From Lumbricus rubellus (lineage: Eukaryota > Annelida > Clitellata > Crassiclitellata > Lumbricidae), in assembly GCA_945859605.1 (NCBI GenBank), contig OX243817.1:21794623-21858622 (forward strand): a stretch of 64,000 nt of DNA, in the 5' to 3' direction. The notes under the pieces are model-generated. The model ran no database searches and was not told where the DNA came from. It saw nothing but the letters and a program-made list of their open reading frames with translations. Within the stretch, counting starts at the first letter, position 1. The number at the start of each line of letters is the position of its first letter. Positions 9,088 to 54,300 of this stretch are shown here, piece after piece. Position numbers and translations under genes: made by a program.

Positions 9088-9300
9088 TGGGGCGCGGTGG
9101 TGCAGTGGTGGCGTCGTTGCCTTGGAGCCGGAAGGTTCGAGGTTCGAATCCACCTCGCCGCGTAAGGACCTTGGGCAAGTCCTTCACTCACAATTGCTTA
9201 GCGCTTCGGCGTGTAACTCCGATGCAGCGTCCGCTCTGCATTCGGAAGCGCCTCTGAGTAGAGAGAGCTTGAAGGGGCGCTATAACAAGTGCACACACAA
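9088..9300 (+). mobile_element. tRNA-derived SINE, family 1
   Basis: It starts GGGGCGCGGTGGTGCAGTGG, contains the perfect pol III B-box-like GGTTCGAATCC, then a body with GGCAAGTCCTTCACTCAC and a LINE-like tail GCGCCTCTGAGTAG...GGGGCGCTATAACAAGTGCAC. It is inverted relative to 7880-8086, so two copies face each other around exon 1 of gene X. A TRNAscan-type search should reject it as a true tRNA because of the long 3' body. Confidence 0.8.
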
Positions 9301-14454: not shown

Positions 14455-17400
14455 TTAAACGGCTGCTATCATCATGCGACTGGTCTTAAGTTGAGAGGAG
14501 ACAGTGAGTCCAAGGTCAGATAGAGTGTTCCAGTTAAACTTGGTAGTGTTGTACATGCAATTAAGACACGCGTACGAGCAGCTGTTGTACCAGAATCCAC
14601 TCATTTCATCAGAAGCGCAATTAGTAGATAAGGACAAGTCATTGTCCGAGTCGAAAGCTGAAAATTTCATTCCGTTCTGAGAGTAGATGCCAGAATTGTT
14701 TTTCACGTTCAACGCATCGCCTGCATCTCCCACGTAACCAGACACGTTCAGTGCGTAACCAAGTGACCCTGGTGTTATGAAGAATGAATCGTATTCAGCT
14801 GAAAACCATTTTCCCTCTACCATAGATTGTATCTCGATGCGTAGACGGTAGGGGGCGTTGGTTGTCAGTTGGTGCATCTTCTCAAGGCCCAGCCAGAAAT
14901 TGGTGGAGATGTTACCAAAGCCGCTTTGGAAAATTACGAATGGCTGGTAGAAGAGATTGCGCCCGTCTACCCTCTGCTGGATGACGATCCAGTTGTTGAT
15001 GGACATCAGTAGAGAGGGTTTGATCATGGTCGGAATTGTTACGTTGACCGTGACAAACATCACCCGGTAGTTATCTAACAGAATTTAATATAAAAAAAAT
15101 TAATGCCATATAGGTTGATTTAAAAAAGCGACGGAATGATGCTTTGAAAGTAGACCTAAGTAATGGAGAATTTACTACTAAACACTATGAACAATGTGAA
15201 CATATGCTATTAATACGTCGAACAGCAAAAATGTTTGACTCTAAGAACCATTGTCAATTTTAACTTTTGCTCAAAAGCAAGTTATCAAAGCAGACAGCTT
15301 CAGCCTGCATATCAGGTTCAGTGGCCATGCTACTCGAACTGTAATTTTTACCTTGCATCAAGTCGAGCAAAAACAGTCTACGCGCATTGCTCATTCTCGC
15401 ATTATTTGCTTGGTGCATGGCATTCAACAGTTACTGTTTGCTTTCCATAGATCTCTGAAATAGCACCACAGTGTGAGCAGTGTGTATCTAGATCAGTTGC
15501 AGACTGTAAGTATGCACCCAAATAGCACGCACTTATTTTCATGAAATCATAAATGTGCCAAAGTATAAGCGAACTCAATTATTCAATCTAAAGATGGAGC
15601 AGGCCTACAGCTGTTTCCAATAAATTATTATTGTGTAGGCTATGTAAATTGATGCACTGCAAGATAATTTACCTGATAGCTTTCTCACGCAATGTGCCAG
15701 AGTTCGATTAGCAACGAGACAGGCATTGCATCCATCGCCGGTTAGATTCACACCACATTCGTTGAAAAGACGACCGCCATAAGTGAACGGCAACGAGCAG
15801 TTCACCGCTTGAATTCCTAAAAGTAAGCCTAAACTTAAATGACGAGCAAAGTTTCTGTGTTCTATAGGATATACATGTATGTAGCCTATTCTGTGTATGT
15901 ACGGTGAACGGAAAAACCGAACCTCTCCTATTGCTACAATTAGCCTATATTTGTATTGGTTTGTACAGTTTAATAAAATATGGCGGAACTACTAGTTTAA
16001 AGGACAATAATCAGATAACTATCATTTGTTAGCTATATAACGTGTGTTAAAAATTTCTTCCTTCTACCTCAACACACGCACACAGACGCGCTCACCACTG
16101 ACTAATTGCTGAATCGATTACAGCTTGATCAAATTCGTCCCACTCCTGTAGCCTATTGTACGCTGACGCAGTTCTTCGACATAGCGTTCCTTTTCTTGTA
16201 AACTTTTCTTGCATCGACACAGACCAGATTTTATAGTCCACGGGATTAAGGTCTATAATCGGTTTTAGATTTAAAAGTAGAGTAGACTGCATATATTATT
16301 AGTGCAGAATGGGAATAAAAATTTAGGTTTATTCTCAATAATATTTTTACATTTTCGGTGTTAATTTCTATATTATATATATAATATATTATATATAATA
16401 TAGAAATATATATTATATATTATATACTTGATACATTTCAAAAAGCCTAGGCCTTAATCCCGTGGACTATCGTAGAGAAATTTATAGCACTGTGAAAATT
16501 TTCGCTTTATCAGCAGAGGAGAACGATAAAAGCTTCTTCCTCTCTTCCTCCTACCCTCCCTCCCTCCTTCACTTCATTTAAATTGTGTAAGAAAGCATAT
16601 ATATTAACAAACATTATTGGTAAAACGCTAATATTTGTAAAAAATCTGGTATTTGTAGCTATAAAAGCACAATTTTACCTCTCCAATCCTCCCAGCCTTC
16701 CTCTTTACCTCCCTTCCTCCCTCATCCAATGAAATTGGTATAGGCTAAGTGCGTATTGAAAAAAAATGCTAAACAGTTGGAAAAATTGGAACTTGGTACA
16801 TTTTTGCACACCAAGCATTCATACCGATATCCTACCGTCCTTCCATAATTATTAATTTTTCTTAATTTTCTTCGCATAAAAATTATCTTTGTCAAAAATA
16901 ACTCATCGTCCAAAAATCTCTGATTTAAAAGTTTCTTAAGTTCAGTAATTTTTAAGTCCATAAAATACTGTTGTTGAGACACAATTTGTTCACTAAAAAA
17001 AGTAACGAGTGACGTCACGGTATTGCCCAATCTCAAATGGAAACATTATGTCCTCACCCCATAGCTCGTCTGTGAACTCACTCTGCAGTCTAATCAATCT
17101 ACCAATGTTACGTCATGAAGTTTCCCATTCTAAATATAGAAATATTGGAAATATTCATTTTGTATCAGCAGATGCATAGCTTGAGTTGAGAGAGCAACGT
17201 TATAGATGGTCAGCCATTTACAAGACTAGTCTTCCTTTCAATCAAGCCCTCCTCTGCTATCCGGATTGCTGGACAAGCATAATACACAAACTAATCTATG
17301 TTGTATTATGCGACACAACAATAATTTTGAAAAATATTATGGGCTTTAGATCAAAACACTGTGAAGAAAAAAGAGACGACTCACCCATGTCAGGCTGATT

Positions 17401-18655
17401 GGGGTGAGCCTGCAAATAATAAAAAATTCTTTATAAGATAACGACTTGCTAACTAATAACTGGATGTTCCGCTTTGTTAGTAGGCTATAGAGTTGTTTTA
17501 TTTGTTGATTTAGCTGTATTGTATTCTTTTTGTCGATTGCGTATTAAGTTTTTTCCTAATTATAATATTATCTTTGTGTTCCTGCAATTGAATAAACTAT
17601 TCTTTTTTATTTAACACGATTACGGGGTAGCCTTATTAGGGAGAATTGGCCATCCCTTGTCAAACAAATTATGTTAAAGTATTACGTTCGCTGTCAAAAT
17701 TGCATTATGTTTTTTGGTTCAGAAAATAAATAAAATAGATATAGAATAATACAAGAGTTTAAAGTGAATCAGAATTGAGTATTCTCTGTTAGAACCACTG
17801 TAAGTTAGGCTGTAATGCTTAATAGCCTATCTCTCCTAAACCTTACACTTAGGCCTACACTGAATTATTCCCTACATATAGGCTAGTTCTCACATCGTGT
17901 GGCACTGGTACTAGATATATGATTTCATTTTAGGCTATAGTATTTCATTTCATTTGGGACGTATTCAAACACATAAAACACCCATTCGCTAGTATCGCTA
18001 CAGCCTTGTTTCTGCATATTTATTTTCATACAAGAAGCCTATATTTTAAAAAATGATTGATTACAGCATAAACAGAATGTTTCCAAATAATAATTGGATG
18101 TTCTAAAAGTAGACTCTAATCTTTGAGATTGTTCTCAACAAGTAATTCTTTATTTCCAACTTCTAATTAAATCACGGTTAAATGCACAAAAAGCTTCTGG
18201 AAAGGACTTTTAACAAAATGCCTTTTGCAGTTATCGTAATAATACCAAGATCTTGTTACAATATACAGTGACATAAAATATCTCACATTTAAAAATCATC
18301 CTCTATTATATTTCGAAATAGAAAAGGTTTATCAAATCTTGACCTGATAGTGGGTACACGGCAGTGAGGTTCCATAGCATTTTGGTCGGTTGAAGAAGAT
18401 GTCACACGTTTTGCTCACATTGTTGTAGTTGAAGTTCTCGCAGTACAAGGATCGTTGACATGTTAGAGCACAGTCCAAGACGGAGTTCAAGGACAGCGAA
18501 TCCGAAGGTGCATCAAGGACACACAGATGTGATCCAGGAGGAGCTTCCAACACTTGGTACTCACGTACGTGATCTATCATGGCGCAAGAAGCTTTTGCGC
18601 CTTCAACAACAAGATTGAAAATCGCCCAAAGCATCGAATAACCGACCATTATCAC
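14455..18655 (-). CDS. Gene A: secreted PAN-FN2-like-FReD protein
   Basis: Four exons, 1101 nt, about 366 residues. Exon 1 (18344-18655): leader MIMVGYSMLWAIFNLVVEG, then a PAN/apple domain (CALTCQRSLYCENFNYN, CDIFF), ending CAG before gtcaag, phase 0. Microexon (17385-17409, 25 nt, AHPNQPDM, gtgagt donor). Cysteine exon (15673-15816, 144 nt, phase 1-1): [16 protein letters not shown] fits the fibronectin type II start C-x2-PF-x-Y-x7-C, but the WC motif is AC and there is an extra Cys. FReD exon (14455-15074, 620 nt): [40 protein letters not shown] and SCSYACLNC. The usual SNLNG of FReDs is replaced by ACLNC, adding two cysteines. Probably a secreted carbohydrate- or microbe-binding lectin. 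A mariner fragment lies in intron 2. Confidence 0.9.
16092..16292 (-). pseudogene. Mariner-type transposase C-terminal fragment
   Basis: The minus strand encodes DLNPVDYKIW followed by VEELRQRT, then EWDEFDQAVIDSAISQW: the C-terminal part of a Tc1/mariner transposase around the catalytic DLNP region. The frame shifts between RQRT and QEWDEF at a GGCTA insertion (plus strand TAGCCTA, 16149-16155); removing it restores a continuous mariner-like frame. The copy in gene B intron 2 has the same lesion, so the insertion predates the A/B duplication. Inactive. Confidence 0.8.
16238..16476. repeat. Palindromic rearrangement of mariner fragment with AT-rich core
   Basis: GTCCACGGGATTAAGG (about 16238) reappears inverted as CCTTAATCCCGTGGAC (about 16451), around a (TATA)n palindrome at 16368-16430. 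It looks like an inverted duplication of the end of the mariner fragment. The same arrangement occurs in gene B (about 22172-22430). Confidence 0.65.
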
Positions 18656-20400
18656 CTATAATATCTTATACGCTATTTGATCTAATAAGTGTGAATTTTA
18701 TATAAGCTTCGTCTGCGGGAGCAACTGTATGTAATATTATTTCTTTTTCTCAACATTTTTCAGGTGTCGATCCAGCAACGGCGACGGTTGCATGCATTTA
18801 CCGATTCAATGTAGCTGGGACTTCGCCTGCGTCATTTATCCGCCCTGCCTAGAGCGCAAGGTAGCGGACAAAAGCCTCGAAATTGTTAGCTTCTGTATAA
18901 TACTGAAAACAGAAGTCAACGTTTCCTGTCAGTCTAACAATTCTGTTCGTTACCTATCGATTCAGTCATGTCGAAAGGCTAACATGGCTGCGGTTCGTTG
19001 TTTAAACTGTACGCCGTCTACCTTAATTGCCACGCCACTGTTTCACGTGTAGACCTATGGTGTTTGCTTCAGCTTTTACTTAGCCGCATTCAGCAAAATA
19101 GATATTGCCTATGCAAATTGAAAAAGAGCACATTCAAAGCAGCACAAAGTCATAATAAACGTTCAGACTTTCATTCGCTACAAGGTTTGAAATGCACTGA
19201 CGATTCATAATATGAATCGATCGCGTTGGCATATGTAGGCCTATTATAATATTATAGGCCAACGCGTAGAGTATGCCTATCTACGTCAGCTAATTTCGTT
19301 ATGCTCTAGTGAGGTTGGACAGCACAATGACCACCGTCTTTCACTGTATACGCAAAAATCGATTCATGTGCCATGCACGGTGAAAGCAATGCTTCAGGCG
19401 ACGTTTGAAAACAGCGACATTTAATAATTAATTACCAGTTAGCCTAATCATCAGCGAACATTGAAATGTCCGAACTGATGAATGAACAATGAAGTGAGGC
19501 GTATGGGCCTATGTCTTTGTTTTCATCGGATAAGTAGGCCTAAAGTCGATGACGCAGGTCCGCAATTAACCACATTCTGCACAACGGGTGTTTTCAAGAG
19601 TCCGGCTGAGAGCTAGAACATAAGTAATCTGAATCGATTGCGGTATGCTTGAACTTCCATCAAATGAACGAAGTGACTGTAACCCTTTAATGCCGAGATG
19701 GTAGTAAATGGTATGGGAAATACTATACCTCCGGCATTAAGGGGTTAACGAGCAGCGGACGTTGGAGAGAGTAGGGACGATGAAAAGAAAAGAAGTCTTC
19801 ATCTGACTTGTCGCGTCTTAATGGCCTTAGCAATGGGACAAATGAGACGCAGCGACAATTAAATGAATAAGCTTAAATTAATCAAACGGCACGAAATTTT
19901 AATTAATAATTTGATAGGGGCCTACATAGTTAAATGCAAAGTACTAAAAAAACTGGTCCAAATGTTTAGCCTGCTGTAGAGTAGAGAATTTAAGAATGCT
20001 AACGCTCAGAAATCTTAATAACAACAGATACAAAACGTGCAGTTTTCCTGTTCGACTCTGTACCAAACAAAGGGAGTCCTCGTCTGACTTGTCATGTTTT
20101 AATACTATAGCTTGAGCAGCAGAACAAATGAAGCACAAAGACAATAATTATGTTAGCTATCGAACGATACAACATCACGGTTTTCAAATGAAGTCAAAGA
20201 TATATTTTAAACGTTAGGCTACTAAACGGAAAACTATCATGCTTGTAAGCATAATATAGCGCCAATGTCTATAATAGTTTGTCAGGTTAACGCTCAGAAA
20301 CCATGTTAAGATTCGCTGTGTTAAAGTAATAGATTCAAAGAGTCCTCTTCATATACATCGTATACGTGTCATTACAGCCTAGTGCAACACTTCATGCCCC
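18656..20400. other. A-B intergenic spacer
   Basis: No gene seen. Nearly the whole spacer is paralogous to 25097-26735 (upstream of B), including TTCGTCTGCGGGAGCAACTG just upstream of each exon 1 and CAGCGGACGTTGGAGAGAGT further out. It therefore holds the duplicated promoter region of gene A. The copies differ by the TTAA-flanked element at 19683 and by several TA-linked micro-insertions. Confidence 0.7.
19683..19744. mobile_element. 62-bp TTAA-flanked nano-MITE (piggyBac-like)
   Basis: The ends CCCTTTAATGCCG and CGGCATTAAGGGG are inverted; the right flank is TTAA and the left flank GTAA. The paralogous site upstream of gene B (about 26100) reads GTGACTTTAACGAGC with no insert: an empty site carrying one TTAA. 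TTAA duplication and CCCTTT termini are typical of piggyBac-type elements. A second copy lies at 48643-48705. Confidence 0.85.
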
Positions 20401-23400
20401 TTAAACGGCTGCTATCATCATGCGACTGGTCTTAAGTTGAGAGGAAACAGTGAGTCCAAGGTCAGATAAAGTGTTCCAGTTAAACTTGGTAGTGTTATAC
20501 ATGCAATTAAGACACGCGTACGAACAGCTGTTATACCAGAATCCACTCATTTGATCAGAAGCGCAGTTAGTAGACAAGGACAAGTCGTTGTCCAAGTCGA
20601 AAGCTGAAAATTTCATTCCGTTCTGAGAGTAGATGCCGGAATTGTTTTTCATGTTCAGCGCATCGCCTGCATCTCCCACGTAACCAGACACGTTCAGTGC
20701 GTAACCAAGTAACCCTGATGTTATCAAGAAGGAATCGTATTCAGCTGAAAACCATTTTCCCTCTACCATAGATTGCATCTCGATGCGTAGACGGTAGGGG
20801 GCGTTGGTTGTCAGTTGGTGCATCTTCTCAAGGCCCAGCCAGAAATTGGTGGAGATGTTACCAAAGCCGCTTTGGAAAATTACGTATGGTTGGTAGAAGA
20901 GAATGCGCCCGTCTACCCTCTGCTGGATGACGATCCAGTTGTTGATGGACATCAGTAGAGAGGGTTTGATCATGGTCGGAATTGTTACGTTCTCCGTGAC
21001 AAACACCACCCGGAAGTTATCTAACAGAATTTAACAAAATGCTGTATAGGTTGATTTTAAAAAGCGACGGAATGATGCTTTGAAAGTACACTTAAGTAAT
21101 GGAGAATTTACTACTAAACACAATGAACATAATGCTATTAATACGGCGAAGAGCAAAAATCTTCAACTCTAAGAACCATTGTCAGCAGCTTTACTTTTTC
21201 ACAAAAGCAACCTATTAAAGCTGAAAGCTGCATGACAGGTTCAGTCGCCATGGTGCTCAAACTGTCATTTTTTCCTTGCATCAAGTCGAGCAAAAACAGT
21301 TTACGCGCATTGCTCATTCTCGCATTATTTGCTTGGTGCATGGCATTCAACAGTTACTGTTTGCTTTCCACAGATCTCTGAAATAGCACCACAGTGGCAG
21401 CAGTGTGTGTCTAGATCAGTTGCAGACTATAAGTATGCACCCAAATAGCACGCACTTATTTTCATGAAATCATAAATGTGCCAAAGTATAAGCGAACTCA
21501 ATTATTCAATCTAAAGCTTGGAGCAATGGAGCAGGCCTATACAGCTGTTTCCAATAAATTATTATTGTGTAGGCTATGTAAATTGATGCACTGCAAGATA
21601 ATTTACCTGATAGCTTTCTCAAGCAGATTGCCAGACTTCGATTAGCAACCAGACAGGCATTGCATCCATCGCCAGTTAGATTCACACCACATTCGTTGAA
21701 AAGACGACCGCCATACGTGAACGGCAAACAGCAGTTCACCGCTTGAATTCCTAAAAGTAAGCTTAAACTGAAATGACAAGCAAAGTTTCTGTGTTCTATA
21801 TAGGCTATGCATGTATGTATTCTGTGTATGTACGGTGAACGGAAAAACCGAACCTCTCCTATTGCCACAATTTGCCTATTTTGTATTGGTTTGTACATTT
21901 TAATAAAATATGGCGGAACTACTAGTTTAAAGGACAATAATCAGATAACTATCATTTGTTAGCTATATAACGTGTGTTAAAAATTTCCTCCTTCGACCTC
22001 AGCACACACACAAAGACGCGCTCGTCACTGACTAGGCCTAAATCCTGAATCGGTTACAGCTTGATCAAATTCATCCCACTTCTCTAGCCTATTGTACGCT
22101 GACGCAGTTCTTCGACATAGCGTTCCTTTCCTTGTAAACTTTTCTTGCATCGACACAGATAAGATTTTATAGTCCACAGGATTGAGGTCTATAATCGGTT
22201 TTCGATTTAAAGGTAGAGTAGACTGCATAGCCTATATTATAATTAGGCCTATTAGCGCAGAATGGGAATAAAATAGGTTTATTCTCAATAATATTTTTAC
22301 ATTTTTGGTGTTAATTTCTATATTATACATAATATATATACAATATATATTATATATGATATAGAAATATATATTATATATTATATACTTGATACATATC
22401 AAATAGCCTAGACCTTAATCCTGTGAACTATAAAATCTACGAAGTGACTAGCGGACCGCCAGGCGGCCGTCCAATTTCAATTACTAGCGGACCGCCAGTC
22501 ACGTGTAACCCGTCACATGACTGGCCTAACGAGTCTTGATTCTTGAATATTGTTACAATGGCGGCAGCAGTTACCGAAAATAGAAGTTTGATTAACGAAG
22601 ATAAATTTTGGTGTAAATAGAATTTGATAATCCTGTCAACAGCGGTCCCAAATTATACCACTCAATGTAGATCTACTCATCCCAACATGCAAAGCGTGAG
22701 GGTCGGTTAGGGCTCAGGTTAGGCGTCTTGAGGGTCGGTTAGGGTTAGTTTTAGGGTTAGTGCAGTCATTCTGCTGAAATTGAAGCTGAACTGATGAACA
22801 ATCGTCGATACGTCGCGCTCTAATTTTATTGCCCTCATTGGCAGCCATATTTGCTGGCGGTCCGCTAGTACTCCGTATTGGACGGCCGCCACTGGCGGTC
22901 CGCTAGTATTTGAAATTCGAGGGCCGCCTGGCGGTCCGCTAGTCACAGCCTAAAATCTATCGTAGAGAAATTTCTAGCACTGGGAAAATTTTCGCTTTAT
23001 CAGCAGAGGAGAACGATGAAAGCTTCTTCCTCTCTCCCTCCTACCCTCCCTCCCTCCTTCACTCCATTTAAATGTGTACAAGAACGCATTAACAATTGGT
23101 AAAGCGCTAATATTTGTAAAAAATCTGGTATTTGTAGCTATAAAAGCACAATTTCACCTCTCCAATCCTCCAAGCCTTCCTCTTTGCCTCCCTTCCTCCC
23201 TTCCTCCCTCATCCAATGAAATTGGTATAGGCTAAGTGCGTATTGAAAAAAATACTAAACAGTTGCAAAAATTGGAACTTGGTACATTTTTCCACACCAA
23301 GCATTCATACCGATGTCCTTCCATATTAATTTTTCCTAATTTTCTACGCACAAAAATTCTCTTTACAGCTTGATCAAATTCTCTGATTTAAAAAATTGTT

Positions 23401-25096
23401 AATTTCAGTAATTTCTAAGTCCATAAATATTTTGAGACTCAATGTGTTCACTAAAAAAACAGTATGTCACGGTATTGCCCAATCTCAAATGGAAACATTA
23501 TGTCCTCACCCCATAGCTGGTATGTGAACTCACTCTGCAGTCTAATCAATCTACCAATGTTACGTCATGAAGTTTTTCATTCTAAATAGGGAATTATTGG
23601 AAATATTCATTTTTTATTAGTATACGCAGAGCTTGAGTTGAGAGAGCAAAGTACATGTAGCCTACTAACTAGATGTTCAGCCATTTACAAGACTAGTCTT
23701 CCTTTCAATCAAGCCCTCCTCTGCTATCCGGATTGCTGGACCAGCATAATACAAAAACTATGTTGTAGGCCTATTATGCGACACAACATTAATTTTGAAA
23801 AATATTATGGGTTTTAGATCAAAGCACTGTGAAGAATAGAGAGACGACTCACCCATGTCAGGCTGATCGGGGTGAGCCTGCAAATAATTAAAAATTCTTT
23901 ATAAGATAACGACTTGCTAACTAATAACTGGATGTTCCGCTTTGTTAGTAAAGAGTTGTTTTATTTGTTGATTTAGCTGTATTATATTCTATTTTGTCGA
24001 TTGTCAATCAATAAGTTCCCCCCTAATGATCTTTGTGTTCGTGCAATTGAATGAACTGGCTGTCGTGGTTTTTATTTTTATTTTACACGATAAGCCTACT
24101 GGGTGGCCTCAATAGCGGGATTGATAATCCATTGTGAACCAAATTATGTTAAAATATTCTGTTCACTGTCATAATTGCATTATGCTTTTTGGTTCGGGAA
24201 ATAAATAAAATACAAATCGAATAAAACAAGGGTCTAAAGTGATTCAGATTTGAGCATTCTCTATTAGAACCACTGCAAGTTTGGTTGTAATGCCTAATAG
24301 CCTATCTCTCCTATACCTTACCCTTACACTGAATTATTCCTTGCATATAGTTCTCACATCGTGTGGTACAACATATATGATTCCATTTTATAGTATTTTA
24401 TTTGGGACGTATTCAAACACATAAAACACACCTTAGCTACAGCCTTGTTTCTGCATTTTTTAAAATACAAGTAGCCTATATTTAAAAAAATGATTGATTA
24501 CAGCATAAACAGAATGTTTCCAAATTATAATTGGATGTTCTAAAAGTAGACTCTAATCTTTGAGATTGTTCTCAACAAGTGATTCTTTATTTCCAACTTC
24601 CAATTAAATCACGGTTAGCCTAAATGCACACAAAGCTACTGGAAATGACTTTCAACAAATGTATTTTGCAGTTATCATAATAATACCAAGATCTTGTTCT
24701 ATTATGCAGTGACATAAAATATCTCACATTTTAAAATAATCCTCTATTATATTTCGAAATAGAAAAGGTTTATCAAATCTTGACCTGATAGTGTGTACAC
24801 GGTAGTGAGGGTCCATAGCATTTTGGTCGGTTGAAGAAGATTTCGCATGTTTTGCTCACGTTGTTGTAGTTGAAGTTCTCGCAGTACAAGGATCGTTGAC
24901 ATTCTAAGGCACAGACCAAGGCGGAGTTCAAGGGAAGCGAATTCGAAGGTGCGTCAAGGGCGCAGAGCTGTGATCCAGAAGGTGCTTCCAGCACTTGGTA
25001 CTCACGTACGTGATCTATCATGGCACAAGAAGCTATTGCGCCTTCGACAACAAAATTGAAAATCGCCCAAAGCATCGAATAACCGACCATTATCAC
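20401..25096 (-). CDS. Gene B: secreted PAN-FN2-like-FReD protein
   Basis: Same four-exon structure as gene A: exon 1 24785-25096 (leader and PAN, CALECQRSLYCENFNYN), microexon 23853-23877 (25 nt, AHPDQPDM, gtgagt donor), cysteine exon 21607-21750 (144 nt, NCCLPFTYGGRLFNEC) and FReD exon 20401-21020 (620 nt). All phases close, giving about 366 residues. The second residue pair of the cysteine exon is CC where A has CS. Introns align with those of A over their whole length apart from FB-3 (22440-22950), so B and A are recent tandem duplicates. FReD features are as in A, including ACLNC and a DLDND calcium-site-like motif. The downstream flank has an uninterrupted CATTACAG site where A and C carry hAT insertions. 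Confidence 0.9.
22025..22228 (-). pseudogene. Mariner transposase fragment, duplicate in gene B intron 2
   Basis: Paralogue of 16092-16292, with DLNPVDYKI and EWDEFDQAV still readable, the same GGCTA frameshift (plus strand TAGCCTA near 22085), and an extra GGCCTA near 22034 that is absent in the A copy. It arose by duplication of the whole gene unit, not by new transposition. Confidence 0.8.
22440..22950. mobile_element. Foldback-like element FB-3 (511 bp) with 9-bp duplication
   Basis: The left arm contains GTGACTAGCGGACCGCC units and the right arm their inverse GGCGGTCCGCTAGTCAC. It is flanked by a perfect 9-bp repeat TAAAATCTA (22431-22439 and 22951-22959). It is absent from the paralogous position in gene A intron 2, so it inserted after the duplication. 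The centre holds the same GAGGGTCGGTTAGGG-rich core as FB-1 (about 22690-22770), although the arms are unrelated in sequence. Confidence 0.85.
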
Positions 25097-27252: not shown

Positions 27253-30200
27253 TTAAACGGCTGCTATCATCATGCGACTGGTCTTAAGTTGAGAGGAAAC
27301 AGTAAGTCCAAGGTCAGATAGAGTGTTCCAGTTAAACTTTGTTGTGTTATACATGCAATTAAGACACGCGTACGAACAGCTGTTATACCAGAATCCACTC
27401 ATTTGATCAGAAGCGCAGTTAGTAGACAAGGACAAGTCGTTGTCCAAGTCGAAAGCTGAAAATTTCATTCCGTTCTGAGAGTAGATGCCGGAATTGTTTT
27501 TCATGTTCAACGCATCACCTGCGTCTCCCACGTAACCAGACACGTTCAACGCGTAGCCAAGCGACCCTGATGTTATTACGAAGGAATCGTATTCAGCTGA
27601 AAACCATTTTCCTTCTACCATAGATTGCAACTCGATGCGGAGACGGTAGGGGGCGTTGGTTGTCAGTTGGTGCATCTTCTCAAGGCCAAGCCAGAAATTG
27701 GTGGAGATGTTGCCAAAGCCGCCTTGGAAAATTACGAATGGCTGGTAGAAGAGAATGCGTCCGTCTACCCTTTGCTGGATGACGATCCAGTTGTTGATGG
27801 ACATCAGCAGAGAAGGTTTGATCAAGGTTGGAATTGTTACGTTTACCGTGAGAAACATCACCCGGAAGTTATCTAACAGAATTAAACAAAATGCTGTATA
27901 AGTTGATTTTAAAAATGCGACGGAAGGATGCTTTGAAAGTAGACCTACTTAATGGAGCATTTACTACTAAACACAATGAACAATGTGAACATAAATTATG
28001 CTAGTAAATATGTGACTCTAAGAACCATAATCAGTTTTAGGCTAACTGTTGTTCAAAAGCAAATAATCAAGGCAGACAGCTGCAGCCTACATATCAGGTT
28101 CAGTGGCCAATGGCCATTGTGCTCGAACTGTCATTTTAACTTTGCATCAAGTCGAGCAAAAACAGTCTACGAGGATTCTCGCATTATTTTGTTTGGTGAA
28201 TGGCACTCAACAGTTACTGTTTGCTTTCCATAAATCTCTGAAATAGCACCATAGTGGCAGCAGTGTGTATAGCCTGGGCTATATAGGCTAGATTAGTTGC
28301 AGAATATAAGTCGGCTATGTAACCAAAAGCAAGCACTTATTTTCATGCAATAACGAATGTGTCAAAGTAAGCGAACTCTATTAAGCCTATTTACTCAACG
28401 GCCAATTTTTATAATTGTACATGAGAAGTTTGTTGTCGAAGTCATGCAACACTTCCTTGACAGGAAAGAAGTTTGCGAGTTCTACGTCGAGGCCTTGTTA
28501 TCTCTTTACCGAACGAGGGTATAAGATTCTGACCCCCATTTACTACACTTTGGTCCAGGGCTGTTTTTAAGAAATTTTTGGAACTGCACAACCCCTTCTT
28601 TTCTTCCCCATCCTCCATGGTAAAGTAGCCTACTTCCAATCGGAGTAAAATGACCTTTATCAAATAGTTTTAACTGCACAGAAGTGCTTCTACAACTGCA
28701 CAAATTCATTTAGAACTGCACATTTTGTGTACAACTGCACGTTAAAAAAACCTGCTTTGGTCGATAACAGGTTGAACATAAACACACAGTTTTAATTAGT
28801 TTTCACCATATTTCTGTGGTTGAAAACTATGCGTCTTTTGTGTTTAGCAAAACGCATATCGAAATGAATTTTTAATGATAACTTCCGATAATTCGTTACT
28901 AGGATTTTTATCTTTGGAGAGTTAGGCTAAAACAACACAGAACATAACTGTGCATTGAGTTAGTTAACCGATGATGCCTGCTGTTAAAATTCAGGCCCTG
29001 CAAATTAATTAATTTTACCTGCCAACGTTCTGACGCAGGGTGTTACGATTCGATTAGCAACGAGACAGGCATTGCATCCATCGCCAGTTAGATTCACACC
29101 ACATTCGTTGTAAAGACGACCACCATAGGTGAACGGCAACAAGCAGTTCACCGCTTGAATTCCTAAAAGTAAACTTAAATTACGACGATAGTTTCTGCGC
29201 CCTATAAGCTTACACCAAATAGAAAAGCTGGAAAGTTTAGAGCTTAGGCTACTAAGCTTAGAAATAGACAATTATATGTATACTGTTTAAGAATCATGCG
29301 CAGCATCAACACAATGTCAAGACGTGCGATGGAAGAATTAGCGCTGTAACTGGGACGACCATGGACTATTAACTATACGGGACAGTGACGAGGTGGATAT
29401 CCTTTACATAATATGTAAATATAATTATATTATTGGAAGTTCAGTCATTGGCTATTTACCGACTAAGTTATGTCATAACAAAGATGATTAGCATCATCGT
29501 TATGGAGCTTTGAATAAACAACACCATGGCTTAACCGAGTGTTTCAAAAAAAGCAATCGATAATGAATCGGACTCTTCTGAAAACGACTTGTCGTGATGC
29601 ATAGATTTTTATCTCGTTGCGTATTCGGTATGGGGCTTTGATTGTCAGCAGGTAGTGGTGGTAGCCATTGGGTAGCGTCCACTTACATATCTGATGAAGA
29701 CTTATTTATTATTATTAGATCAATAATAAACGTTTCTTTAACAACCATCTACATGTACCTGTCTTACTTATTATGGTTGTGCTTACTGCTGTGCTTAGCC
29801 TCCTTCTTGATGTTTGCATAGGCCGCCGCACGCAGTCTGGACGCCGCTGTCCACGGTGACAATGCAGGGTCGTTCCTTCTCTGTGGTTGGTTCTACAACC
29901 TTGAACGTTCTGCCATTGAATATGCGACACCTCCCAGACTGTTCACTGTTTCGCCATCTGCTAAATAGGCCTACTTGCTTTTTCCTTTTGGCCTGGGCTG
30001 AGACCGCCGGACCGCTGCTGAGTAGAGATCTTAAAGATGCGCTGTATAAATTCTGATCGACAGATTGATGTATTACAGCTTCACCAATGGTTGCACTCTG
30101 CCAGTGCCAGTCCCAAGTCTAGATAAAGGAGGAGGGTGATACTAATCATCTTCGATATGGCAGTGTCACTAAACAGTCACAAGTGATGGATCACGTACTA

Positions 30201-43194: not shown

Positions 43195-46138
43195 CTACAC
43201 TGCCCTGATCATCATTCGACTGGTCTTAAGTTGAATCGACGCAGCCGCTCCAACATCAGGCAAACTGAACCAGTTGAAATCTAGAGTGCCGTACACGCAA
43301 TTAAGACACGCGTAGGAACACTGGTTCATCCAAAAACCACTGGGATACATAACAGCGCAATTCCCACTAGAGGCCAGGTCATTGTCCTTGTCTGGAGTGG
43401 AGAATTTCATTCCGTTCTGAAAGAAGATTCCAGATTTGTTCATGTTGTTGAGAGCATCGCCTGCATCTCCCACGTAACCAGCCACGTTCAGTGCGTAGCG
43501 AAGTGACTCTGATGTTATGAAGAATGAATCATATTCAGCTGAAAACCATTTTCCATGATCCATGGATTGTAACTCGATGCGTAGACGGTAATGGGCGTTG
43601 ATTGTTAGTTGGTACATCTTTTCAAGGCCTAGCCAGAAGTTCTTGTTGATGTCTCCGAAGCCTACTTTGTAAACTGGCCATAGCTGATTGAAGGATTGAC
43701 TGCCGTCTACCCTCTGCTGGATGACGATCCAGTTGTTGATGGACATCAGTAGAGAAGCTGGGCTGAAGTTCGGAATTGTGACGTTCACCGTGACGAACAT
43801 CACGAGAAAGTTACCTGTCACAAATAAAAACGCGACTAATACAAATATAATAATTATTATTGCCAAGCAATAATTAACATACATGGGCGTGCTCTCAGCA
43901 GAGGTGCAGGGCAAAAATTAATCTATTTATGTATTTCAGAGATGAGTCTGGGTTACGTTTGTAGGCTATACAGTTTTCAAAGTGCTGCCAATTGCTGCAC
44001 AGCCACCATTTCTCTGAACATTGCTGGGTTCGATTTTTTTAATCGCAGCTTCCTGTATTAAGGAAGAAGTTCAAGTTTTTAGTCTAATATGATATCCGAT
44101 TAGAAATAATTATTATTATTCTAAAGCGTAGGAGACGTTGACAAAATCACAATTCGCCAATACAAATCGAATTCAGAATAGACTTTATCGTCAATTTCAG
44201 GTGTTTACTTAATCAGCAAAATGTCTAACATAAATTAGATGAAGAACATGATTTTTTAATCTCATAACTGCATTTCCTAGAACCGCAAGATATTTCGTTG
44301 GTTCCTCATAACTCATAAGAGTGTCTTAAGTAATGTAAAGTAAATCACCTGATAGTTGTCTTCTGCAGTGTGCTACGGTTCGATTCGCAACGAGACAGGC
44401 GTTGCATCCATCACCTGATAGGTTCGCAGCACATTCGTTGTACAGACGACCGCCATAAGTGAACGGCAACGAGCAGTTCTCCGCAGGAATTCCTGTACAT
44501 AACATTAGCAATAGCAATAAATCACGAAGTTTTGTATATCATATCATCTCATATAATATCAAATCCATGGGCGGAGACTTAGGGGACAGGGGACGGTCCC
44601 CCTCAATGAATGTGTTTGGGGGCGGCCCATGTGTTTGTCCTCCCCCTCAATTGTTGAGTGTTATGACTAAAAAAGGGTCATCAACTTTTTTACTGGAAAA
44701 ATTAGTCTATTTTCTAGAAATTTCGACAGGATAACTAAACAAAGGTCATCAGAAATTTTGGTCGCCAAAAGTGGAAAATTTCGTCGGCGACTCAGCCATT
44801 CGTCAGCCCAAAATCTCGCGTCCCTCCTTCGGCGCCACTCGTTCGTCTCCCCCCACCCACCACCACCAAGTCTCCGCCCAAGTCTCCGCCCAAGTCTCGG
44901 CCCAAGTCTCCACCCATGATCACATCATGCCATATACATGTATCATAGAAAGTATCATTTTATACACTAGATTATATCATATCACATCAGGTCATATTAT
45001 AGCAATTATTTGTTTATTTGAAGAAAAACAAATCTTAGTGATGGCACACCGGAAACCGTATACCCAGCTAGACCCACATGTAAGCCACATGTCCAAGTAG
45101 AAATTGGCGTAGGGAACTGAAATGCCGTTCGAGACGAGAAGCCAAAATGGCGTCCTTGGCCACAGGTGGCTATTATATTACTCTATTGAATTGGGTGTTG
45201 AACAGTAGAATACTGCCACATATATGGTATATGGACGTAGGTCCTACTTGAAAACCCAGACCGGCCTTCATGGACTTCCCAACGGCGAGGTTTGTTTTAA
45301 TGTGTAGGTCTTAAAGCATGACATTGCAGTTACCTTTTAACAACAATGTTACTTTATAGAAAGGTGATTTACAGAAAAATTAAAGACTCACCTATGTCGG
45401 GTTGGTCGATCTGTGCCTGAAATGTCAAATAGGCTGTTATGAGAAAGAGAATTAAACCGTAAAACAACGAGATCAAACATCTGGAGTGTCGATCAAAGAT
45501 TGTATTACCAATGGTTCTTTACGAGTAGGCCTAAGTGCTTTTTGAGTTCTTTTTAATCTATCTTTTCCTAATACGAAAGCTTCAAAAATAATGCCTCAAA
45601 ACCTGTCGTTTGAATCTAAGAAATAAAGCAGGATAACTTGTTTCTCTGTGTAACTAAGCAATTGTTATTTCTGCATATCTTTTAAAAACATTTAATGCAT
45701 ATAAACATTTTAGCTGCTAAACAATAATTTTTCTGCATAGGTTTGTAAGTAAAAAGATTCTGGTTTTGAACACCGTTTGCCAAAGAAAGATAGGTCAACC
45801 ATCATCACGATGGTTGGAAAATAAATCATAACCTGATGATGGATGCATGATGGAGAGGGTCCATAACACTTGGGTCGATGGAAGAAGACATCGCATGTTC
45901 TGTTCACATTGTTGTAGTTGAAGTTCTCACAGTACACGGATCGCAGGCATTCTAACGCACAGTCAAGGACCGAGTTCAAGGACAGCGATTCGGAAGGTGC
46001 GTCAAGAGCACAGAGCTGTGGTCCAGAAGGAGCTTCCACCATCTTGAACTCACGCACGTGTATTAGCCTGGTAGAAGAAATGCTGACCAGTCCAAAGGTA
46101 AAACAGAGTACTACGAAAAACATCACATGAACCACCAT
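43195..46138 (-). CDS. Gene D: secreted PAN-FN2-like-FReD protein
   Basis: Exons: 45833-46138 (102 codons; leader MVVHVMFFVVLCFTFGLV, PAN with CALECLRSVYCENFNYN and CDVFF), 45392-45416 (25-nt microexon, AQIDQPDI, gtgagt donor), 44349-44492 (144 nt, [16 protein letters not shown], gtgatt donor) and 43195-43814 (620-nt FReD, TAG stop). About 364 residues. The FReD has [46 protein letters not shown]. It is clearly diverged from A-C and closer to E and F. The intron between microexon and cysteine exon holds a hAT MITE. Likely secreted lectin; all family cysteines are present. Confidence 0.9.
44566..44918. mobile_element. hAT-type MITE (353 bp) in gene D intron 2
   Basis: The ends CATGGGCGGAGACTTAGGG and CCCAAGTCTCCACCCATG are flanked by ATCAAATC (44558-44565) and ATCACATC (44919-44926), one mismatch in eight. 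The right end carries a short tandem array of CAAGTCTCCGCC. A related partial copy starts near 50742. Confidence 0.75.
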
Positions 46139-47414
46139 TTTCGCAGCTTATACCCAAAACAAAACGTAATGCAAGCTTACAGTAACAGTCAGCGTCAGAC
46201 CATCTGATGCGGCAAATCTGTTAAATATAGCTTTCGAGTAACCTTTGATCTACTTACGTAAATATTGTGCAACAAAAAACTTAGCATTTAGACCATACGA
46301 ATCAATGAACCTGTAAAATTGCCATCAATGTGTTCATTACTTGCGCAAGCTTCTACTTCGCTTGGATGGATGGCCTAAAAGCGATATCAAAGTGCCTTGT
46401 CTTTGTTTTGTCTCATGAGAAAGCAACGTTTCATAATGCAAAGTAAAGAGAAATATTGGATGCTTTGCTTGTTTTGGGAATTTGAGATGACACCTATTGA
46501 TCTTATGCTTGGCAAAGTGTTGTTCACGGCTAAGTGTGTGCCTTCGAGTAATCTATTCCTTGAAAGTAATGTTAAGCGCTTTCACGTTAGATTCTACAAC
46601 CTTGTCGCCGTGTTCGACATTAAGCAATTTAGCATAAAGCCTTTAACAAATTCTACACAATAATTGTGTGTCCCTAAACAGGGTAACAATATCGCCGCTG
46701 GCACTCAATCATGTTCGACATAACATAGGCCTACTAACTACATTTCATCGGAGACAGGCTACATTTACTGGTGTCTGGACAATTCGGAGACGGACAATAT
46801 CGGAGCGGACAAATCGGAACGGACAATTCGTAGCGGACAATTTGTAGCGGACAATTCAGAGCGGACAATTCGGAGGGGACAATTAAGAGCGGACAAAAGG
46901 ACAGCAATACATTTTTGCTAAAATGGAAATTGTATTGTTGATTATAATATTTGCTCAAACAGACTTTTTGATGAAAATAATTTTTTTTCAGCAGAGGCTG
47001 TATTCGTGGAAGAAATTATTGTGCCTAAATAGAAGTTGGATTGATGGAAACTATTCTTACCTCATAGCAATTACAACTGTATGGAAAGATGATTAGCCTA
47101 TTATAATCTTTCTTGGGGTCGGTGAATAAGCTCGTCCCCCTGACATGGCTGTTGTGGGCGCGGAGAAATTCTCGGAGATTTACATTGCATTAGTATAGGC
47201 CTAAGCATGGTGTAAGAAGGGTTTACACCATGGGCCTAAGTAAGATTCGTTAATAAGTAAAATACAGAAAGCGTGTCAGTTTACAGGCTGACAATAATAT
47301 TATGTGCAATGTAGATAAGGGTTTTGAGACCTAGAATTTTGTGGATTCACGTTACAAATTTGCTAAAGAGATGGTTGAGCTCGATAAGTATACATGTACG
47401 CCTAATAGCCTACT
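46139..47414. other. 5' flank of gene D and orphan repeat, no gene seen
   Basis: Mostly unique AT-rich sequence that should contain the promoter of gene D; it also holds the GGACAATTCGGAGC array at 46780-46905. No exon-like frame with similarity was found. Confidence 0.4.
46780..46905. repeat. Tandem array of CGGACAATTCGGAG units
   Basis: About eight degenerate 15-17 bp units. The style matches foldback arms elsewhere in the window but no inverted partner was found within reach, so it is recorded as an orphan arm or minisatellite. Confidence 0.7.
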
Positions 47415-47731: not shown

Positions 47732-48465
47732 AGTATACTGTAGTTTAATTGAAAAAAATAAGCAAACTATGGTGGTTAAATGAAGTTAAAAAAACAAGAA
47801 AATTGGAGGCTAGCCAAATTACATGTATGCCTAATTGAATAACAAAATAAGTCGAATTTTTAAATGAGTAAAATACCACACTTCTACGTAATCAGACAGG
47901 AACTACAGACAAAATCTGTCAGTGTGTGGGGCCAACATTTAACTCAGGCGGTGTTTTACAGCAAATGTTTATTAAACGGAATTTATAATCAAACAACGCA
48001 TGCACCCAGTCCAACATTCGGCTGTCGTGCAGTTTGTCCTGCACTCTAGTATTGGCCACACTGGTTTTTAAGACGACACTGTAGAATGGATCTGGGGCTC
48101 TGTGGTGAACGTGGTGTTTTTTCCGGGAAAAACTTTTGTCACTTGAGAGACTCACATACATCATGTTGGACGTGGCAGTAACGGTCGAAATGCATGGATG
48201 AAATTCAATGCAGGTTGTTCAAAGCGATCCATGGCAAGTTCGGCATCGCTCGACGGTCGTCTGTCTTCATAAACAACGAGAAGCACAATGGATCTGCAGA
48301 CAAGCCATGCTGCCCGCTTATAAATAATGAATGCAGTTGCTCCAGATATGTAACAATAACCGCCAGCTTCATTTCAGGCGACGCATTTGCAATTCTTATG
48401 ATTGATTACCGTGCGGAAGGTTTTTCGATCGATCAGCGCGAATTTCCTAGGGAAATCCAAGTCTA

Positions 48466-48793
48466 CAGGGTTGGCCATAAAATAGACTCACCTACGGTTT
48501 TTCGCAGTAGGCTATCTTGGTCTTATGCAAGAATTTCGTAATCATATTTTACGGGCTTACAGGCAATAAAAATTAATAGGCTCTATTTACGTCCATTGGC
48601 TAAATTTCACCAGAACATTTCATACCGAACAAAAGTCTTTAACCCTTTGATGCCGAGAGTGTAGTAAAATGTATGGGAAATCCTATACCCTCCGGCATTA
48701 AAGGGTTAAACCTGTGAGATCTGATTTTAAAATTCTTACTTCTGGCCAAGACATTGGCGAAACTAAGGTTGGTCTATTTTATGGCCCAACCTG
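48466..48793. mobile_element. TA-flanked MITE (328 bp, Tc1/mariner-like)
   Basis: The ends CAGGGTTGGCCATAAAATAG and CTATTTTATGGCCCAACCTG are inverted repeats bounded by TA on both sides, as expected for a Tc1/mariner-type element. A TTAA nano-MITE is nested inside at 48643. It interrupts the duplicated spacer block. Confidence 0.75.
48643..48705. mobile_element. 63-bp TTAA nano-MITE, second copy
   Basis: CCCTTTGATGCCG...CGGCATTAAAGGG between perfect TTAA sites (48639-48642 and 48706-48709). The interior (TGTATGGGAAATCC) matches the copy at 19683. Confidence 0.85.
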
Positions 48794-49299
48794 TATATAG
48801 GCTACATATCGTTTGACATTTGATCTGTCTTCTTTGTCAGGGCAGATCCTGTTGTTCACTACCTCTTAGGAGGCGCGGTAGACAGGTGACCAGTACACGC
48901 CCAAACCATTTCAAACTGAACTTTAGGCTACTCGTAATTAAATTTTCGGGATTTCTACGCCGTCCAATAATCGAAGTCACCAGACAAATACATGTAGTAG
49001 CAATAAAACTTATTAAATTTGAGATTCCCATTAAGTTAAGCATTTCATACAAGAACTAATACGTGCTGTTAAACTTTTCGCAGGAACTGAAGAAGTAGGC
49101 TACATGTATCAATAACTTATTAGTATTGTACTAAATCAATTGCTTGGTGATATACTCGCCACGTGGTCGCTGTTTTTGATTTTACTCTGCCTCTCACTTC
49201 ACAAATAGTGTTTGCAAGTCGTCGTTAAAATAATGCATTTATAATAGGGCCTATTATGTATATTTCTCCATGTCTTACTCCAATCGATATTAGGACCTG

Positions 49300-51311: not shown

Positions 51312-54300
51312 TTAAACGGTTTTTATCATCATTCGACTCGTTTTAAGCTGCGCCGAATCAGTCACCAATCCAAGGTCATACAGAGTGATCCAAGTGAACA
51401 CTGTAGTGTCGTACACGCAATTGAGACATGCGTACGAACACCATTGGAACCAAAATCCGCTGGGATACATAGTAGCGCAACTATTAGGAGACTTGTCATT
51501 GTCTTTGTCGAAGGTAGAAAATTTCATTCCGTTCTGACGATAGATTCCAGAATCGTCCATGTTGTTGAGTGAGTCGCCTGCATCTCCCACGTAACCAGAC
51601 ACGTTCAGTGCGTAGCCTAATGACTCGGATGTTATGAAGAATGAATCGTATTCAACTGAAAACCACTTGTCATTTTCCACGGATTGCATCTCCATGCGTA
51701 GACGGTAGGGGGCGTTACTTGTCAGCTGGTACATCTTCTCAAGGCCAAGCCAGAAGTTTTTGCTGATGTCGCCGAAGCCTGCTTTGTAAACTGACCATGA
51801 CTGATTGAAGGATAAACTGCCGTCTACCCTCTGCTGGATGACGATCCAGTTGTTGATGGACATCAGTAGAGAAGATGTGTTGAAGGTCGGAATTGTTACA
51901 TTGCTTGTGACAAATGTAGTCACATACGTCCCTGGACATAATGGGCTCATTATTAAAATCTGAGAAAAATGTTGTACAATAAAAAAATAACTTGCTGTCA
52001 CATTCATAATAATATCAGCTGATGATGGGGAATCCAGGACTTTCCAAATCTCAGAATATGACATTCACAATTTCACACGCTGCAGTATAATTGGCAAACG
52101 TGCAAGATTGTCTGATAGGCCTATGCATGGTCTGGCATCTTTGTTAAACAGTGTACGTTGTGTTCTCTACAGTACTGTTAATTCATTCTTATTTCTGATA
52201 TAGGTCATTTAAATTACAAATACTGTAGAATGTGATGGTGACAAGTGATAGCTTACCTATGCAAACTGTCTGTGTTCGATTTTCAATCAGACATCCACCA
52301 CAGCCATCGGTAGTCAGATTCTTGCTACAGCCGTTGTACAGACCACCACCGTAGGTGAATGGCAAGGAACAGTTTTCGACTGGAATCCCTGTATTCATAA
52401 AACAACGTTGAAAGCGATTGAATACCATGAGCAACACAATAACCCTTTCACGCATTAATAAGCTACAATCTGTCCTTAATAATGATGCGGCTCGCCTGAT
52501 TGGCCGAATCCCAAAGGTTGGCCATATATCAAGTTTTATACGGGAGGAACTACACTGGCTAGGCCTACCTATGCAAAAGCGCATTGAGTTTAAGATCCTA
52601 ATGCTTATGCGTAATTGTCTAGCTGTCCAAGCTCAGACTTACATGTATCTTAGGGAACTGTGTGTGCCTGTAGCCTACTATTCATTCCAGACCGTAGATT
52701 TCTTCGCGCTGCTACGCATGGTGACCTAATTGTCCTTATATGGCTCGAACTTCCACAGTGTTGCATAAAAGCTTCGCTATAGTTGGTCTTTCTGTCTGGA
52801 ATAAGTTGCCACACTCTCCGCAATGAACTTCTTTTCCTTTATGTGCACACTTTCCGGAAGCTTTTGAAAACATTTCTCTTTTATTGTGGCTTGGTGCCAG
52901 TGCCTCCGAGGAATTTCTTTAGAAGTGGCGCTATATAAATGCACAATTACGATCGAACATAGCTTCTTTCGTTGGACGGAGCATCGAATGCACCAATAGG
53001 CTATTATTCAAAGTTTGTATTTAATTCAAATAGTCAGACAGATCAAAAAATTTAGGATCTCAACAATATACAACTCTAACAACTCTGAAATGACATGCAC
53101 GATACATTAGAAATCAAACATTTTCACCGATTGAATCTCTGTTGAATAATTCAGGTCATGTCTTTTCCCCAGTAACGAGCAGATCAGCATGCTTACCTAC
53201 ATAGGGCTGGTCCTCTTGAATCTGTAAACGCAACCGTTACAAAGAGCGAAACACTCACTCGAAAGAGCAACAATTCATTTTTTTTATCAAAATTTAGCAA
53301 ACTTAAAATATTATTAGGATCAAAAATTTCATTAGCGTAAAGTATTTAGCAAAATTAGCCTATGCAAATATCCATAGACCTATTTGTGAATTCGGATATA
53401 ATTAGGCCTATTAGCGTCAGCATGTGTTAGTAGAAGTAGGCCTAAGCTTAATTATAGCATAGAAATCAGATTTTTTAATGTAAGTAGGCTCAGGTGTATC
53501 TGTATTTAATTTTGGTCGATCAAAGCTTTATGTAACCTATTTACGAAAACACAAACGTCTAAAATGTTTACTGTAACAAGTTCATAGAGTTACATTCTTA
53601 TTCTTTAGGTGAGCTGCCTCTCGGCAGGTCCAGATGCCCAACGACGCCACTCTTCTCGATGTTGTGCTTTTTCTTTGAGTTTTCCATATCCATCCTCCAT
53701 CATCCAATCCAAGAACTTTTCCCTAGGTCTTCCTCTTCCCCTCTTCCCCTCCATTTGACCCTCCACTATGTCTCTTTGCAAGGAGTTGCCTCTCAGTACA
53801 TGTCCTATCCAGTTCCTCTGCCTTGTTCTAATTGTATTCATCAAGGATCTTTCCTCTTCCACCTTCTTACATTAGTTACATTAGGTCAATAGAATTTGTG
53901 ACAATGCCTATGGGCATAATTGGCTATATGGTCAAATAGTTTTGGACTAAATACAACTCTGCGAACTTACACATTTGCAGTAAACTTTAAGGAGGACCCT
54001 GTTAACTATTATACACTTAAAAGCTCACGCAATTATGCATGGGCCAAATAATAATAGTAATAATTTTCTTTTATTCAACAAATTCGGTTGACAGAACGCA
54101 ACCGGTTACAGCGTGCAATAATATCATACATGTAATTATGCAGTTTAAACATATCACAGGAACGCAGATCATGGAATGCACAAATGTTAACTATACTAAC
54201 AGAACAGACAACCTGCAATAATCGGCGCTAATAGCAGCCTACAAAAGAATGTCCGCCCAAAAGGGGCTCGAACTCGTTACCTCTTGCTCTCTGCGCCAGC

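Follow-up and report, generated by a model that had tools for sequence, protein, structure and literature searches.

Introduction

The excision footprint CATG of Tc1/Tc3-type elements corresponds to a 2-nt overhang, CA, and the target duplications of PHIS elements (PIF/Harbinger, ISL2EU, Pangu) include TWA. Excision of Tc1/mariner elements, as described in the relevant part of PMC3878927, produces 3′ overhangs of 2 or 3 bp that are joined into a footprint, and Table 1 of that source gives the Sleeping Beauty footprint as C(A/T)GTA. For the PHIS group, the portion of PMC4482050 on ends and targets lists duplications of AT (ISL2EU), ANT (Pangu), CWG (NuwaI) and TNA (NuwaII), and describes Pangu ends as often beginning with AG or GG.

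The genome of Lumbricus rubellus contains short words of comparable design. They were studied in a genome sample and in a window, the whole 64-kb stretch of DNA analysed here, which includes fibrinogen-related genes in tandem copies whose non-coding DNA can be aligned. Footprints of Sleeping Beauty, Frog Prince, Himar1 and Hsmar1, as given in the footprint sections of PMC3878927 and PMC8151067, likewise comprise a TA duplication and a few element-end bases, and G(G/C)CTA in this genome is built in the same way as Sleeping Beauty C(A/T)GTA (PMC3878927, footprint table). The words in this genome differ in their bases, which are GG/CC, in the occurrence of 4-nt and 5-nt forms beside the 3-nt form, and in their density of approximately 1.2 putative scars per kb in sampled stretches, whereas the described footprints were recovered from experiments.

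As with Tc1/Tc3 CATG, TACATGTA is in excess here (52 against 5.8 expected, window included), and TA-CA ends occur in six of seven resident DDE_3 loci, although this footprint is assigned by its fit to CA ends and not by tracing to one element. PHIS relatives are also present, with 105 DDE_Tnp_4 matches. In contrast to the non-TA duplications of that group, the words are bounded by the TA dinucleotide only, and TA-GGC ends were seen in none of the seven DDE_Tnp_4 loci examined.

Results

Three TA words in a decayed LINE fragment

An earlier note on this DNA had placed three words, GGCCTA, CATGTA and GCCTA, directly after a TA within a LINE reading frame, and its coordinates are exact in the sequence (Table 1). 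The first two inserts are in frame, adding GL (HWL[GL]PMQK) and MY (TY[MY]LRE), respectively. The third had been described as a frameshift, and tblastn matches do switch from frame 1 (to 52672) to frame 3 (from 52675 on). The note had further held that the words were inserted here rather than deleted elsewhere; the empty state was found both in the spanning sequences among 16 protein relatives, as counted from the alignment, and in six genomic LINE copies (L212, L213 and L215–L218) aligned as DNA to the window's copy.

The genome search (787,420,884 bp, 368 contigs) scored 40 LINE places, the window's own included, from which eight loci were extracted. The DNA comparison thus drew on the window's copy and 7 of the 39 other places, with L214, which lies in reverse orientation in the alignment, left out. 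The closest copy, L212, shows GGCTACC, AATTATC and TGTACTA at the three empty sites, each of which thus includes a TA target. The other five copies, as read from the alignment, keep TA at site 2 and at neither of the other two sites. Relative to these five, the window's copy carries indels of +3 (AAT), +6, +6, +5, +2 (TA) and −2, so that the TA words make up half of the six indels and are the sole insertions of at least 5. Presence of the words in the LINE family itself, a condition that the note had named against its own proposal, is not seen in the copies examined. Judged from these alignments, the three LINE words are true insertions. Their occurrence within 119 bp is unremarkable at 136 words per 64 kb, for which a Poisson estimate gives approximately one such cluster per window. 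No LINE relatives were found in the other genome contigs and viral contigs searched for them.

Table 1. The LINE fragment and TA words of the window, in window coordinates
Feature	Position	Strand	Comparison
LINE 3′ fragment, decayed (putative CR1/L2-like), carrying inserts	52427..52905 (limits approximate)	+	16 relatives among proteins; 40 places scored in the genome
Site 1: TA 52560-52561 + GGCCTA 52562-52567	52560..52567	.	Absent in 12/12 spanning proteins and 6/6 genomic copies; L212 bare TA
Site 2: TA 52640-52641 + CATGTA 52642-52647, putative CA-type footprint	52640..52647	.	Absent in 15/15 spanning proteins and 6/6 genomic copies; TA in all six
Site 3: TA 52671-52672 + GCCTA 52673-52677, frameshift	52671..52677	.	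Absent in 13/13 spanning proteins and 6/6 genomic copies; L212 bare TA
TAGCCTA, tandem copy 1	15882..15888	.	Bare TA in paralog near 21818
TAGGCCTA	17850..17857	.	Bare TA in paralog near 24327
TAGGCTA	17931..17937	.	Bare TA in paralog near 24391
TAGGCCTA	19236..19243	.	Bare TA in paralog near 25659
TAGGCCTA	19535..19542	.	Bare TA in paralog near 25971
TAGGCCTA	22033..22040	.	Bare TA in paralog near 16102
TAGCCTA	24616..24622	.	Bare TA in paralog near 18181
TAGGCTA	28038..28044	.	Bare TA in paralog near 15261; local re-scoring favours empty weakly
TAGCCTA within conserved FReD exon	51613..51619	.	Paralogs occupied-like: chance occurrence, no insertion

Word excess and bare-TA paralogs in the window

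Within the window, TAGGCTA and TAGCCTA occur 41 and 43 times (approximately 6–11 expected for both 7-mers together), TAGGCCTA 32 times (0.6–2.5 expected) and TACATGTA 20 times (1.4–1.7 expected), while the Sleeping Beauty-type control word TACAGTA/TACTGTA is found 10 times for 8 expected. When words of the forms XY-N3-XY and XY-N4-XY were compared for all 16 dinucleotides XY, the excess was 126 for TA, 29 for AT (AT-rich words) and 0–1 for the remaining fourteen, a strong preference for TA of the kind that the earlier note had anticipated. Duplicate counting through paralogs was considered and rejected, as de-duplication reduces the three-nt words from 82 to 76 and leaves the four-nt words at 30. 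Chance or composition as the cause of the excess is ruled out by the window counts together with the sample counts and shuffles given below. Among the Sleeping Beauty-type words, which show no clear excess overall, TACTGTA and TACAGTA break a (TATG)n array at 60179 and 60343, and removing CTGTA or CAGTA restores its period.

Words lying in aligned regions were each compared with their nearest paralog to see if it matched a version with a bare TA. The nearest paralog of the GG words (GGC/GCC and GGCC) carried a bare TA in 21 of 39 cases, the same word in 10 and an occupied-like sequence in 8. Control TA-N3-TA and TA-N4-TA words had a bare-TA paralog in 31 of 217 cases (Fisher p 3e-7 against the GG words, with sites viewed from both copies and pairs thus not fully independent). 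The nearest paralog of CATG/AGCT words was empty in 4/8. Indels in BLAST alignments between paralogs give a corresponding picture. TA-bounded cases make up 6/18 five-bp indels, all six GGC or GCC, and 6/14 six-bp indels (four GGCC, one TGCC and one AGCC); two-bp indels were TA-bounded in 6/30 (plain TA repeats), and every other length yielded at most 2. One 3.3-kb paralog pair contains 11 GG-word differences beside 266 mismatches and 59 gaps. The pre-insertion site is therefore a bare TA and the resulting word has the form TA-(2 to 4 nt)-TA, as in Tc1/mariner/pogo-type footprints, with a rarer 5-nt form as well.

Coding exons hold a single word for 13.8 expected (p 7.5e-6; 6,513 bp in 15 intervals, set from open frames and paralogy), and its paralogs indicate that this one is no insertion. 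Such avoidance fits neutral scars that are tolerated outside coding DNA only. The fibrinogen-related exons of the tandem copies lie on the minus strand at 14455-15084, 20401-21030, 27253-27948, 43195-43917, 51312-52064 and 61063-61704, with Pfam Fibrinogen_C in the one tested, and stand alongside PAN-domain exons (639-1106, 8182-8625 and 45710-46147 tested). Leech (Helobdella robusta) proteins are the only named relatives of these exons among the matches listed, and a search of viral contigs for relatives of the FReD gene returned none.

Abundance in a genome-wide sample

Nineteen 10-kb stretches, of which 171,234 bp were left after tandem-repeat masking, served as the genome sample. TAGGCTA and TAGCCTA together occur 133 times (16–22 expected), TAGGCCTA 94 times (1.9–4.3) and TACATGTA 32 times (3.6–4.4), and all these counts exceed the maximum of 200 trinucleotide-preserving shuffles. 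TAAGCTTA is found 15 times (1.9–3.0 expected) and TACCGGTA 9 times (0.9 expected). In the 171 kb of unmasked sample, TAGGCCTA ranks first in over-representation among 31,112 octamer classes. Simple arithmetic from the sample extrapolates to a genomic word excess of approximately 0.9 million, a figure that is rough because counts are uneven between loci. Excision footprints as such are already well known; in the open-licence literature searched, no earlier description of such words as a genomic feature was recognised, nor any precedent for an abundance of this extrapolated order.

Individual loci carry anything between 1 and 35 GG words per 10 kb (L228 and L221 against L219, L232 and L234). This unevenness may stem from local hopping, chromatin or the age of the sequence. 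Scans of viral contigs for word pairs returned 210 loci, which are not evident animal DNA. Three viral contigs (L147, L171 and L080) have 11–15 GG words each, a density that is selected, since the search pattern that retrieved them itself included GG words; the words are probably the contigs' own repeats.

Word classes

Words of the type XYY′X′ are in clear excess for four dinucleotides in the sample and window combined: GG (125 observed, 6.5 expected), CA (52, 5.8), AG (25, 4.1) and CC (9, 1.2). AT-rich TA palindromes are likewise raised, with 40 TATATATA for 12 expected and 29 TAAATTTA for 16. The 5-nt form GG(G/C)CC occurs 16 times (1.1–1.8 expected). GGC/GCC is the commonest word form of all, and its two orientations are equally frequent (67:67 in the sample, 108:108 with the window), the strand symmetry of a footprint. 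The AGCT words (TAAGCTTA), at 25 for 4.1 expected in the sample and window, suggest AG-ended elements.

The counts of 3-nt and 4-nt GG words are correlated over the 19 loci (r = 0.91) and over-dispersed (D = 7.4), and the flanks of the two forms are indistinguishable at six positions (p 0.3 or more). The two are therefore made by one process. The base before TA in GG words is A in.37, G in.35, T in.21 and C in.08 of cases; C is scarcer and G commoner there than in TAG controls. Avoidance of CTAG was considered as a cause of the C depletion and rejected, as the depletion persists against TAG-only controls (10/232 against 226/1654; chi-square p 2e-5 for GGC/GCC and 0.005 for GGCC).

TACATGTA behaves differently: its variance equals its mean across the 19 loci, its correlation with the GG words is 0.24–0.27, and its flanks have no such shift. 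Because CATG differs in dispersion, correlation and C before TA, the three LINE words probably do not derive from one element. The suggestion that GGC and GCC come from both ends of one element is thus compatible with their equal numbers, but a single source for all three words is unlikely. The best reading is that the words are excision footprints from at least two element kinds.

Candidate source elements

No parent element was found inside the window. In the genome, DDE_3 (Tc1/mariner-like) matches are common (146 among 150 scored). Seven DDE_3 loci have terminal repeats, with TA-CAC or TA-CAG ends in six of them and no such ends assigned in L241; an eighth, L245, has no terminal repeats. 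CAC and CAG, the 3-nt footprints of these resident Tc1-like elements, show no clear excess in the sample. DDE_1 (pogo-like) matches number 109, including 24 with one common score and open frames of 480–599 aa.

Among these pogo-like loci, the homology shared by L253 and L254 begins exactly at TA followed by GGGTGGAGTGGGGCAAAAGGCC. L253 has the matching right end and measures 3737 bp with both TAs. It combines the Pfam domains of pogo-like elements, DDE_1 (PF03184, E 1.1e-17) and an N-terminal HTH_psq (PF05225, E 5.2e-5), with terminal inverted repeats and TA on both sides. L256 belongs to a related pogo-like family (54% protein identity) with GGGTAGGTGGGGGCAAGACGCC after the TA, and the third pogo-like locus, L258, has a CC end, CCGTATTTTAGCG, after the TA; no element ends were obtained for the DDE_1 loci L255 and L257.

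The end of the resident pogo-like family, TA-GGGTGGAGTGGGGCAAAA, is present as 37 exact left ends. When up to 3 mismatches are allowed, the genome has 351 occurrences of the 20-base end and 39 of a reversed control; of the 40 places with one mismatch, 37 correspond to the right-end form. The 20 left ends that were fetched all adjoin TA and have 20 different flanks, as expected of elements that look mobile. The base before TA in insertions of this family is G in 11, T in 10, A in 3 and C in 1 of 25 ends. C is rare and G frequent both here and in the GG words; A is frequent in the words only, which counts in part against this family as their source.

The resident TA-inserting elements for which ends were obtained have precisely the word bases GG, CA and CC there, with GG ends in L253/L254 and L256 and CA ends in six of the seven DDE_3 loci; a GGC end was not found among those examined. 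From its termini, the pogo-like family ending TA-GGGTGGAGTGGGGCAAAA is the best resident candidate source of the GG words, and CATG appears to fit the resident CA-ended Tc1-like elements. Two other repeats were considered and set aside: a TA-GGCCC inverted repeat in L220 lies within a foldback arm of 216 nt and is no GG-type end, and the TAGGCCGCATTCCC repeat common to L227 and L222 reads as LINE-like coding DNA.

The window itself contains several inverted-repeat structures. A 332-bp TA-flanked element with CAGGGTTGGCC ends (48464-48795) is likely a non-autonomous relative of the CA-ended elements. Another inverted-repeat element with TA flanks (TA-GTCCACGGGATTAAGG...) is found in both tandem copies, at 16234-16469 and 22168-22432, and the latter contains TAGCCTA and TAGGCCTA. 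Approximately 526 bp (22431-22957) present in tandem copy 2 and not in copy 1 include nested CTAGCGGACCGCCAG-type inverted repeats. A 177-nt inverted pair (7908-8084 and 9089-9265) is 94% complementary and by reading resembles a tRNA-derived SINE (GGTTCGAATCC motif); ARAGORN found no tRNA in it.

Discussion

The TA words of this genome are probably excision footprints of TA-specific cut-and-paste elements. The earlier note had proposed that TA-(3 or 4 nt)-TA is what Tc1/mariner-type elements leave behind, and the polarity of the insertions, their targeting of TA and their form all hold up. The insertions, the set of words, the genome-wide excess and the presence of mobile-looking GG- and CA-ended elements flanked by TA are observed features. 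From them we infer excision as the maker of the words, an assignment of words to elements and a model of overhang overlap. The analysis turned up no excision product that could be linked to a particular known copy of an element.

An element of the Tc1/mariner/pogo kind inserts at TA and duplicates it. On its departure, the transposase cleaves the non-transferred strand at either end, a few bases within the element, so that short 3′ tails stay on both flanks, and end joining seals the flanks into TA, tail bases and TA. For ends beginning with XY and 2-nt tails, zero overlap would give TA-XYY′X′-TA (GGCC, CATG, CCGG), while a 1-nt overlap would leave one mismatch that could be repaired either way, to XYX′ or XY′X′ (GGC or GCC). 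Under such a model GGC, GCC and GGCC would be scars of GG-ended elements, with the pogo-like family ending TA-GGGTGGAGTGGGGCAAAA as the candidate, and CATG would be the scar of resident CA-ended Tc1-like elements. The pogo-like element L253 would thereby be linked to the GG words. The excess of GGCC (125) and GG(G/C)CC (16) fits GG overhangs joined with 0 or 1 nt of overlap, and the element end therefore need not read GGC. Against the overlap model, the 1-nt-overlap form is raised for GG only (CAG/CTG 42 for 34 expected, CCG/CGG 14 for 13), which the model does not explain. Also weighing against the excision reading are the raised AT-rich TA palindromes, the lack of a clear excess of CAC and CAG words, and the strong over-dispersion of the GG words between loci.

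A lost or rare element with 5′-GGC ends and 3-nt overhangs, the strict analogue of Sleeping Beauty CAG, is a serious alternative source of the GG words. Full overlap of its overhangs would yield GGC/GCC, a 2-nt overlap GGCC and a 1-nt overlap GG(G/C)CC. One register series would thereby cover all three lengths, including the Sleeping Beauty-like 3-nt form, and the pre-TA base preference of the words is not fully that of the GGG-ended family. A GGC end with a 3-nt overhang accounts equally well for the GG series. However, searches of the LINE loci, the PHIS/pogo loci examined, the 19 sampled stretches and the window yielded no TA-GGC...GCC-TA inverted-repeat element, and the pattern TAGGC-N7-GTGGGGCAAAA, which covers only relatives of the resident GG-ended family, had 0 matches in the genome. 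We consider this alternative possible rather than probable, and lean mildly towards the pogo family with GGG ends, ahead of a lost element with GGC ends.

Explanations that dispense with excision fare less well. A TA-specific nuclease or repair activity that adds short palindromic fillers, with no transposon involved, would account for an excess in several TA-palindrome-TA words (GGCC, CATG, AGCT, CCGG). Yet the fillers form a small, specific set, as TAGGGTA occurs at expectation and the GGCGCC form (TAGGCGCCTA) is absent from the word counts, and CA, CC and GG are also the terminal bases of TA-inserting elements resident in this genome, AG being without such a match; this explanation is improbable. 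It is very doubtful that the bare TAs arose from ancestral words through microhomology deletions between two TAs. The 2-bp microhomology of TA...TA makes such deletions possible, but the empty state is ancestral at the three LINE sites in copies and proteins, which already contradicts the proposal there, and deletion could neither produce TAGGCCTA as the top over-represented octamer nor choose GGC-type over other TA-N3/N4-TA words. Equally hard to credit is a selected motif, such as a protein-binding site, that arose by point mutation or small insertion: the words are palindromic, abundant and unevenly spread, but they are exact 5–6 bp insertions at TA in a dead LINE and in non-coding paralog DNA, with the same flanks across three lengths and with mutated neighbours common.

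One lineage of GG-ended pogo-type elements, of which only a few dozen well-preserved copies remain today, may have given rise to roughly a million excision scars in the 787-Mb genome, a reading to which we give slightly less than an even chance. With the same reserve, again just short of even, such scars could rank with the most frequent insertion mutations of this species. Set against approximately 0.9 million scars, the number of well-preserved copies looks low, and long activity or frequent excision would be needed.

Cut-and-paste elements are counted by their remaining copies, whereas scars count departures, which appear to exceed resident copies by orders of magnitude. If the excision reading is true, the scars would be a fossil record of transposon departures far exceeding the remaining elements, and non-coding DNA would have been rewritten word by word. 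A large class of 5–6 bp insertions would be explained, and transposon activity over evolutionary time would be measurable through plain k-mer counts. An excess of TA-XYY′X′-TA words would provide a simple test for active element ends in any genome, and the words would offer a natural readout of how the germ line joins and repairs overhangs with one mismatch.
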